Below are positions 24,027 to 25,645 of a stretch of 64,000 nucleotides of DNA, in pieces; the first letter of the stretch is position 1; each line of letters opens with the position of its first letter. This stretch comes from Micromonospora chersina (GTDB lineage Bacteria > Actinomycetota > Actinomycetes > Mycobacteriales > Micromonosporaceae), in the NCBI RefSeq assembly GCF_900091475.1, contig NZ_FMIB01000002.1, forward strand, positions 5,518,001 to 5,582,000, written 5' to 3'. The notes beneath the pieces were generated by a model, which worked only from the letters and a program-made list of their open reading frames with translations, ran no database searches and was not told where the DNA came from. The translations under genes were made by a program, and so were the position numbers.

Positions 24027-24087
24027 GTGGGGTCAGGCCGGGGTGGGGTCGGGCCGGGTGGGGTCGGGCCGGGTGGGGTCAGGCCGG
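24027..24087. repeat. Short tandem repeat, four copies of about 15 bases
   Basis: Units beginning at 24027, 24043, 24058 and 24073 read GTGGGGTCAGGCCGG or GTGGGGTCGGGCCGG. The last copy runs into the 3' end of the DAHP synthase gene (stop at 24079-24081). Confidence 0.85.
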
Positions 24088-25167
24088 GGTCGGGAGGGTG
24101 GCGCGGCGGGCGCGGACCGCCTGGGCGAGGTGGTCGAGGACCTCGGCGGTGGTGTCCCAGCCGATGCAGGCGTCGGTCACCGACTTGCCGTACTCCAGCT
24201 GGCGGGTGGGGTCGAGGTCCTGCCGGCCGGGCTGGAGGAAGCTCTCCAGCATGATGCCGACGATGCCGCGCTGGCCGGCGGCGAGCTGGGCGGCCACGTC
24301 GGCGGCGACCAGCGGCTGGTTGCGGTGGTCCTTGCCGCTGTTGGCGTGGCTGGCGTCGACCACCACGCGCTCGGGCAGCCCGGCGGCGCGCAGCAGGTCC
24401 AGCGCCCCGGCCACCGACTCCGCGTCGTAGTTGGGCCGGCCACCGCCGCCGCGCAGCACCAGGTGGCCGTCGGCGTTGCCCCGGGTGTGCATGATCGCCG
24501 GCGTGCCGGAGACGTCGATGCCGGGGAAGACGTGCGGGACGCCGGCCGCCCGGATCGCGTCCACAGCGGTGCCGATGCTGCCGTCCGGGCGGTTCTTCAT
24601 GCCGATCGGCATGGACAGGCCGGACGCGAGCTGCCGGTGCACCTGGCTCTCCACGGTCCGCGCGCCGATCGCGCCCCAGGCCACCGTGTCGGCGATGTAC
24701 TGCGGGGTGATCGGGTCGAGGAACTCGCAGCCCACCGGGAGACCCAGCCGCACCACGTCGAGCAGGAGCGCCCGGGCGGTGCGCAGGCCGGTGTTCACGT
24801 CGCCCGACCCGTCCAGGCCCGGGTCGTTGATCAGGCCCTTCCAGCCCACTGTCGAGCGCGGCTTCTCGAAGTAGACGCGCATCACGACGAGCAGGTCGTC
24901 GGCGAGCCGGTCGGCCGCGTGGCGCAGCCGGGCCGCGTATTCCAGGGCGGCGGCGGGGTCGTGCACCGAGCAGGGGCCGACCACGACCAGCAGCCGGTCG
25001 TCGGTGCGGTCCAGCACCCGGCCGACGGCACGTCGACCGGCCACCACGGCCTCGGCGAGGGACTCCTCGAGCGGCAGGTGGTGGTGCAGCAGGGCCGGGG
25101 TGGTCAGCGGCACGACACGGTCGATCCGCTGGTCGATGACCCGATGGACGTCCGGGGTCGTCGTCAC
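24079..25167 (-). CDS. 3-deoxy-7-phosphoheptulonate (DAHP) synthase, type I
   Basis: A 362-residue class I (AroF/G/H-like) enzyme that condenses phosphoenolpyruvate with erythrose 4-phosphate, the first step of aromatic biosynthesis. Family marks are VVVGPCSVHDPAAALEYAARL near residues 60-80, MRVYFEKPRSTVGWKGLINDP near 94-114, GMKNRPDG near 190, and VDASHANSGKDHRNQ near 272. GTG 25167 is preferred: it follows GGAAGG, while the upstream ATG at 25251 lies inside a terminator-like hairpin. The gene is preceded by a leader with an aromatic-rich mini-ORF and a hairpin, suggesting attenuation. The 3' end carries part of a tandem repeat. Confidence 0.95.
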   Translation of the reverse strand: MTTTPDVHRVIDQRIDRVVPLTTPALLHHHLPLEESLAEAVVAGRRAVGRVLDRTDDRLLVVVGPCSVHDPAAALEYAARLRHAADRLADDLLVVMRVYFEKPRSTVGWKGLINDPGLDGSGDVNTGLRTARALLLDVVRLGLPVGCEFLDPITPQYIADTVAWGAIGARTVESQVHRQLASGLSMPIGMKNRPDGSIGTAVDAIRAAGVPHVFPGIDVSGTPAIMHTRGNADGHLVLRGGGGRPNYDAESVAGALDLLRAAGLPERVVVDASHANSGKDHRNQPLVAADVAAQLAAGQRGIVGIMLESFLQPGRQDLDPTRQLEYGKSVTDACIGWDTTAEVLDHLAQAVRARRATLPTPA

Positions 25168-25213
25168 GGTGGGGTTCCTTCCGCCGACCGTGCCCGGGGC
25201 CGGCGCCCGGGAT

Positions 25214-25269
25214 CGAGCCGGCTGCTCGTACGCGAAAGGGCAGGGAATCATCCCTGCCCGGCCGGCTCG
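25214..25269 (-). promoter_or_regulatory. Attenuator-like nested hairpin before DAHP synthase
   Basis: On the transcript strand a GGGCAGGGA/TCCCTGCCC stem (25238-25259, nine pairs, four-base loop) is followed directly by TTT. Outer bases 25214-25222 and 25261-25269 (CGAGCCGGC / GCCGGCTCG) can also pair, which would give an alternative fold. It lies between the aromatic leader peptide and the DAHP synthase start. Confidence 0.65.
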
Positions 25270-25282
25270 AAGAGGAGTGACG

Positions 25283-25348
25283 TCAGCTCATGGTCGAGTC
25301 ACCGGCTCCTCCAGCCGGCTGCCTAAACCATCGATACGACCGCGTCAC
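25283..25348 (-). CDS. Aromatic leader peptide of DAHP synthase
   Basis: A 21-codon ORF starting at GTG 25348 and ending TGA 25283-25285. It begins MTRSYRWFRQP, so Tyr, Trp and Phe codons fall within four positions, early in a very short ORF directly upstream of the first enzyme of aromatic biosynthesis. TACGCT, a -10-like box, ends seven bases before the GTG, so the ORF may be leaderless. A terminator-like hairpin follows its stop. This is the classic layout of ribosome-mediated attenuation by aromatic amino acids, but it is inferred, not recognised from a known RNA family. Confidence 0.6.
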   Translation of the reverse strand: MTRSYRWFRQPAGGAGDSTMS

Positions 25349-25645
25349 GCCCGCCAGCGTACCCGACGGGAGGGGTGGGTCTCACCCGCTCGTCGGGTAA
25401 GCCGCGCCTCATGTTAACCCCGGTCGATGGAACGACGGGTAACTCCAGCGGCACGGCACGTGTCCGCGGGCCGTCCACGCGGGTGAGCTGGCGGTCCGAC
25501 CGATGATCCATCCCGAATGGCGGGAGCCGGGCCGTCGTCCGGCCCGGCGTGGGTGCGCGAATGCCGCCGGGAGAGACCTGGGCCGCGTACCGCATCCTGG
25601 GAAGCGCGGGGTTCCGCCGGGCCCCGGCGGGGGTATGAGGACGGC

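Follow-up and report, generated by a model that had tools for sequence, protein, structure and literature searches.

The type I DAHP synthase gene of the window (the whole 64,000-nucleotide stretch of DNA that was analysed) is preceded by a leader that is predicted, with a probability of roughly 0.85, to be a ribosome-mediated attenuator of this gene, composed of a leaderless leader peptide and a refolding RNA. Through its tyrosine, tryptophan and phenylalanine codons together with the switching hairpins, the cell would very probably be able to sense these amino acids. The leader is best read as a member of the AroR/aroF kind that has been published from Corynebacterium glutamicum; its novel features are its spread over many actinomycete genera, the Trp codon, the invariant rare Tyr and Phe codons and a helix, formed between RNA segments 1 and 3, that abuts the terminator. 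In many actinomycete genera, the enzyme at the entry to the shikimate pathway thus comes under the predicted control of an aromatic-sensing switch, in the form of an RNA element without a match to an Rfam model. The rare Tyr and Phe leader codons, beside genes using solely the other synonym, and the abutting antiterminator candidate are testable on leader codon and terminator function.

The putative leader peptide and its -10 box

The DAHP synthase gene was the sole type I match in its genome. A type II DAHP synthase (L265) is encoded elsewhere in the same genome (G000:C2:6109735-6111018), and no aromatic leader was found in the 600 nt upstream of it. The coordinates of the gene and of the features of its leader are listed in Table 1.

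Table 1. Features of the DAHP synthase leader region (positions in the window)
Feature	Position	Strand	Evidence
Type I DAHP synthase, GTG start	24082..25167	-	TIGR00034 aroFGH, 472 bits (cut-off 173.2)
Possible hairpin CACGGT...ACCGTG around DAHP synthase SD and GTG	25165..25192	-	sequence
Segment 4 (GCCGGCTCG), predicted to pair with segment 3 around T	25214..25222	-	fold; z -1.8 (type A), -4.0 (type C)
Terminator-like hairpin T, GGGCAGGGATGATTCCCTGCCC + TTTCG	25233..25259	-	arms coevolve, z -8.6 and -10.0
Segment 3 (CTCCTCTTCGAGCCGGC), predicted partner of segments 1 and 4	25261..25277	-	coevolution
Stop-codon hairpin GTGAC...GTCAC	25277..25302	-	sequence, fold; coevolution weak, z -2.0 to -2.7
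Leader-peptide ORF MTRSYRWFRQPAGGAGDSTMS, predicted leaderless	25283..25348	-	ORF reading, genus comparison
Segment 2 (GGAGCCGGTGAC), predicted local partner of segment 1	25298..25309	-	fold; coevolution weak, z -2.4 and -2.1
Segment 1 (GCCGGCTGGAGGAG), predicted to pair with segment 3 or, locally, segment 2	25306..25319	-	coevolution, constrained folds
Control codons TAT CGA TGG TTT (Tyr-Arg-Trp-Phe)	25325..25336	-	genus conservation
-10 box TACGCT	25356..25361	-	sequence

An earlier, sequence-only reading of this DNA had described a GTG-initiated ORF of 21 codons with Tyr, Trp and Phe at positions 5, 7 and 8, and a TACGCT box ending seven bases before the GTG. Both are present as described, with a spacing of exactly 7 nt, while the distance from the end of the leader ORF to the DAHP synthase start, given there as 116 bases, was measured as 115 nt. 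The sequence GGCGGAAGGA lies upstream of the DAHP synthase GTG (25167). A generic scan for terminators and sigma-70 type promoters found no such promoter. Among 137 actinobacterial leaders, none had an SD-like site upstream of the leader start, and the TANNNT box lay exactly 7 nt from the start in 118, 6 nt in 15 and 8 nt in four, figures that are somewhat biased because the starts were picked partly by this box. Transcription would probably start at or adjoining the leader GTG.

To define a strict criterion, a TANNNT box ending 6–7 nt before the start codon, an ORF of 8–45 codons and at least three aromatic residues within seven codons were combined. This combination was found in the upstream region of the window and in none of 2000 dinucleotide shuffles of it. 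It was likewise found in 133 of 164 actinobacterial DAHP synthase upstreams, 53 of which carry the genus code of the window so that the 164 are not independent, versus none of the 164 reverse strands and one of 3280 shuffles. The 164 are the actinobacterial upstreams that were read, including loci without a leader and leaving out the model-fetched L170-L179. The observation of a leader with Tyr, Trp and Phe is correct, and far beyond chance.

The DAHP synthase frame is also open upstream of its GTG into the terminator hairpin (25168-25251, minus strand, with an ATG at 25251). The open frame spans 388–415 codons in the genus rows listed, but 360 in G124; the upstream extension may be fortuitous, as can happen at high GC, or reflect an alternative start.

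Conservation and codon use

DAHP synthase was present in all 151 genomes of the genus that were searched. The upstream regions of 49 genus loci (L081-L129), the best-scoring of the protein searches, had GTG, TAT, TGG, TTT, CAG, CCG and GCT as codons 1, 5, 7, 8, 10, 11 and 12 without exception, and CGA as codon 6 in 48 of the 49. Adding the lower-scoring L166-L169 gave 53 loci, in all of which TAT, TGG and TTT were invariant. Three loci whose proteins are 89–91 % identical to the DAHP synthase of the window (L001-L003) had a leader of the same kind. The alignment of relatives that the sequence-only reading had proposed thus retained the Y-R-W-F codons, with stems that coevolve across actinomycetes, and neither the mini-ORF nor the hairpin was lost in close relatives.

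The leader codons for Tyr and Phe are rare synonyms. In the 49 genus DAHP synthase genes, tyrosine was encoded by TAC 245 times and by TAT never, and phenylalanine by TTC 212 times and by TTT never, when codons were counted along the aligned gene and then on to the stop (a cruder gene slice had counted one TAT). The corresponding 49 leaders contained 49 TAT and 49 TTT codons, and the 137 leaders together contained 149 TAT, three TAC, 140 TTT and 14 TTC. These rare synonyms could provide slower wobble decoding or keep the stall site unstructured. The aromatic cluster, start codon, frame and -10 spacing were constant across leaders whose other residues differ.

Class-wide, the enzyme was detected in 58 of 296 genomes at the threshold used. 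Among 55 upstreams read outside the genus, the leader finder called 38, three of them wrongly, and two more were added by the model; no leader was found in the remaining 18, namely all 17 loci of family code f90 plus a single f92 locus. The enzyme was present in 170 of 201 genomes of family code f2, and all 20 upstreams read there (19 genera) had a leader. The finder gave no leader in four of 107 loci (L010, L143, L156 and L165) and in 17 of the 55, and removal of the wrong picks (L162, L189, L192 and L217) left the 137 leaders. Model R1, which derives from 13 leaders, none from the genus of the window, had sense matches in five of the 27 loci without a usable finder call (L010, L156, L162, L190 and L194). 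The f90 upstreams (L180, L181, L184, L188, L189, L192, L196-L198, L201, L203, L207, L211, L212 and L217-L219) were without R1 matches as well as without leaders (17 of 17) and form a clean natural contrast.

A second model, R2, gave strong matches (107.7–120.9 bits) in 25 of 25 genus genomes among 40 relatives searched. Of these matches, 24 lay directly upstream of DAHP synthase, the location of the DAHP synthase of the remaining genome (G014) being absent from the listing; other R2 matches in the 40 relatives scored at most 32.1 bits. One genome (G013) carried two further leader copies in opposite orientation on one small contig (C18:192-310 and 2804-2922), scoring equal to the main copy and perhaps an assembly artefact. 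A phylum search with R1 (matches in 10 of 396 genomes) was rejected as a measure of absence, since in the rows listed its first step let through only eight candidates per genome and it missed the window's own copy, and was replaced by protein searches and reading of the upstreams.

RNA helices, the proposed switch and its rivals

The hairpin that the sequence-only reading saw running straight into TTT is formed by GGGCAGGGA-TGAT-TCCCTGCCC at 25259..25238 and is followed by TTTCG. Its U-tract in the window consists of three T and the generic terminator scan calls none; at least three T occur in the first 6 nt past the T stem in 119 of 124 type A and type C leaders. The alternative pairings proposed by that reading, GTGACG with CGTCAC and AGCCGGCT with AGCCGG, do exist in the leader region, but the conserved alternative, 1:3, lies beside the terminator stem and not inside it. 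The 3' arm of the stop-codon hairpin can alternatively pair with the leader start.

Coevolution was assessed without alignment by comparing real partners with partners exchanged among the dereplicated leaders within each type, for 20 leaders of type A (Micromonosporaceae-like) and 23 of type C (mostly YWRF-like). The 1:3 pairing gave z scores of -4.7 and -6.2, with all six negative controls at -1.72 or above in the stratified test, which was relied on because two negative controls reached -1.95 and -3.4 in the unstratified test. Scores for 1:2, the start:stop pairing and the stop-codon hairpin were between -2.0 and -2.7, and those for 1:4 were +0.4 and +2.1. Alignment A4 leans towards structure and includes the 13 source sequences of R1 as well as three matches to the palindromic part in antisense. 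In it, 98.3 % of the cells were paired, both sides had changed in 13 of 22 pairs and none of 500 shuffles reached any measure. Sliding the partners by 1–3 columns left 37.9–50.2 % paired. This alignment is model-fitted (60 matches from 57 of the 58 loci given, 59 distinct rows); pair counts were taken on it because A1 and A3, two other alignments, do not align the terminator region correctly, and the alignment-free tests serve as an independent check. No Rfam family matched the leader at gathering score, the window yielding tRNA only; at E values up to 10, two unrelated matches below gathering were obtained, and six related loci gave none.

Leaders of type B, with Rhodococcus, Nocardia, Amycolatopsis and Antrihabitans among the named members, showed no coevolution of 1:3 (n=13, z +2.5). 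A hairpin like CGAGCCGG/CCGGCTCG was present in 22 of 23, and one of the 22 had a U-tract (at least four T in 8 nt); by another measure, on automatically picked hairpins, at least three T in 6 nt were found in three of 13. The exception among the 22 matched leaders, L252 (G1018), has a run of T after this hairpin, unlike the other 21, which suggests that the CGAGCCGG/CCGGCTCG hairpin can act as a terminator.

General features of attenuation are present in the leader: an ORF rich in pathway codons (Y, W and F within four codons) precedes a biosynthetic gene, and a stretch of the leader ORF can pair with the region preceding the terminator (1:3). The layout of ribosome-mediated attenuation proposed by the sequence-only reading is supported, at the level of sequence comparison, by codons that do not vary in any of the 53 genus loci and by coevolving stems. 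In the proposed switch, scarcity of charged tRNA would slow the ribosome at the Tyr-Arg-Trp-Phe codons, which would keep segments 1 and 2 from refolding together and leave segment 1 to pair with segment 3. The 1:3 helix, ending 0–6 nt from the terminator hairpin, would then hinder termination and permit read-through. With ample aromatic amino acids, the ribosome would reach the stop codon, segment 1 would be sequestered and segment 3 left free, whereupon T would terminate transcription or segment 3 would close with segment 4. The pairing 1:2 would thus be an anti-antiterminator, 1:3 an antiterminator that works through its proximity, and T the terminator. A response to all three amino acids is suggested by the codons.

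In 121 of the 124 leaders of types A and C, the longest 1:3 helix ended 0–6 nt before the core of T, and 1:3 and T coexisted in constrained folds of the window's leader. Since 1:3 adjoins T without overlapping it, competition for base pairs does not by itself explain the switch, which is not a textbook one. In a static model with three assumed ribosome footprints and the transcript cut before T, 1:3 was higher with the ribosome on the first aromatic codon than on the stop codon in 41–42 of 43 leaders. With the ribosome on the last aromatic codon (+13 edge), a mean of 8.4 nt of 1:3 was paired versus 10.7 nt at the stop, and 1:3 was formed more than at the stop in seven and less in 28 of the 43 leaders. 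The ribosome-free RNA of the window's leader formed 1:3 (15.9 nt) as fully as that with the ribosome on the first aromatic codon. A fuller account, which we put forward tentatively and consider rather less probable than not, would have the ribosome steer termination without base-pair competition, the abutting 1:3 helix blocking T sterically at the exit channel of RNA polymerase in Micromonosporaceae and most related actinomycetes. T would be nested in the loop of a 3:4 hairpin that arose earlier and still makes up the entire hairpin of Rhodococcus and Nocardia, and single Tyr, Trp and Phe codons, the Tyr and Phe ones being rare synonyms, would integrate all three end products.

Control could instead be exerted on translation, the state of the leader governing access to the SD of DAHP synthase in place of or besides termination. 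The CACGGT...ACCGTG pairing can enclose the SD and start codon of the gene, GTGGGT...ACCCAC was noticed by eye around the SD in L012, L199 and L209, the matched hairpins of the Rhodococcus/Nocardia type are without a U-tract in 21 of 22 leaders, and a published text, in the part available, terms aroR a translational regulatory leader peptide (PMC7356990). This explanation is nevertheless improbable given the T residues that follow the stem in nearly all type A and C leaders (the 119 of 124 above) and a predicted accessibility of the SD that stayed at 0.76–0.83 in the window's leader over ribosome positions and within 0.04 in the others (five leaders folded). A translational relay, with a segment sequestering the SD and freed by segment 4 or segment 1, looked attractive by eye but was rejected, except as part of this rival, because SD accessibility hardly varied with the position of the ribosome in constrained folds of the five leaders.

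It is very unlikely that the leader is a structured cis-regulatory RNA, either a riboswitch or the target of a protein, in which the ORF is incidental. The strong conservation and coevolution of the RNA speak for such an element; against it stand the constancy of the aromatic cluster and of the start codon with its frame and -10 spacing while other residues vary, the invariant rare synonyms for Tyr and Phe in the genus and the absence of an Rfam match. A constitutive or non-functional 5' region, whose hairpins merely stabilise the mRNA, would agree with the short U-tract of the window that was missed by the scan, but invariance at the level of codons and coevolving alternative helices in many genera make this the least probable explanation, with hardly any weight. 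Ribosome-mediated attenuation is the preferred reading.

Relation to known leaders

The sequence-only reading did not recognise the leader as a known kind. However, an AroR leader peptide with Phe-Tyr-Phe upstream of aroF (cg1129) of C. glutamicum has been published, with attenuation by ribosome stalling, according to the portions of the reports consulted (PMC4046766, PMC3890552, PMC11802643). As in the window, an aromatic leader peptide lies there directly upstream of a type I DAHP synthase. Limitation of Phe is reported to raise aroF transcription in C. glutamicum and availability of Tyr not to (PMC11802643, in part). The AroR peptide thus has Phe-Tyr-Phe and a reported Phe response, whereas the leader described here has one codon each for Tyr, Trp and Phe in an arrangement, Y-x-W-F, that is fixed in the genus. 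Candidate leader codons of ilvB in Streptomyces coelicolor are likewise reported, in the extract available, to have been substituted without effect; this and the lack of an effect of Tyr in C. glutamicum mean that layout does not prove mechanism.

Two of the 20 leaders read in family code f2 encode FYF, like the published AroR, and come from a genus inferred to be Corynebacterium (L258 and L259, genus g394); in both the 1:3 pairing abuts a terminator-like hairpin. R1 matched the window at 42.2 bits and L258 at 49.5 bits, and gave no match to L259 at E 1e-4. The window's leader is thus, as judged from sequence and predicted structure, the same RNA as the FYF leaders of the inferred Corynebacterium, with the R1 match extending to L258 and not to L259.

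The actinobacterial trp attenuators (trpL before trpE) resemble the leader in having a leader peptide, hairpins and a terminator; trpL1 is reported to be transcribed leaderless in Streptomyces lividans (PMC8079986, in part). They differ in having Trp codons only and, in the sections of PMC1262725 available, antiterminator and terminator hairpins that hold complementary triples, whereas 1:3 abuts the terminator here. The leader was not filed as classical trp-type because 1:3 does not overlap and exclude the terminator stem. Attenuation by a Phe-coding uORF and a terminator has been proposed for uORFC-13-1 upstream of Acholeplasma aroF (PMC8632094, in part); that element belongs to another phylum, has an RBS and, according to the passages available, is known from Acholeplasma and environmental sequences only, and the likeness is one of description. 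A table row for Shewanella aroF lists an attenuator sensing tyr-tRNA (PMC2659441, in part), and this and the attenuator proposal for Escherichia coli aroF, in the parts available, concern the same gene in other phyla and are likewise compared by description alone. The accessible portion of a survey of S. lividans describes eight leader peptides (Leu, Trp, Ala, Ile, Met and Thr), none of them aromatic besides Trp (PMC8079986), and a comparative study from 2005, again in its accessible portion, reports no conserved RNA regulatory structures upstream of Phe/Tyr operons of Actinobacteria (PMC1262725). No description of a DAHP synthase leader in Micromonospora or Streptomyces was found in those parts of the open PMC literature that were consulted.

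Aromatic leaders on the DAHP synthase gene look widespread outside Actinobacteria. A short ORF with at least five aromatic residues in seven codons was present in 28 of 60 non-actinobacterial DAHP synthase upstreams (L019, L020, L027, L035, L036, L039, L040, L043-L046, L048, L055-L057, L060, L062-L068, L072, L076 and L078-L080) versus one of 60 on the reverse strand, examples being MSAKFYFYFFWYLRPLADREG in Burkholderia (L048) and MNANRSFYFWYYGFPMPLAEEGVRSP in Xanthomonas (L019).
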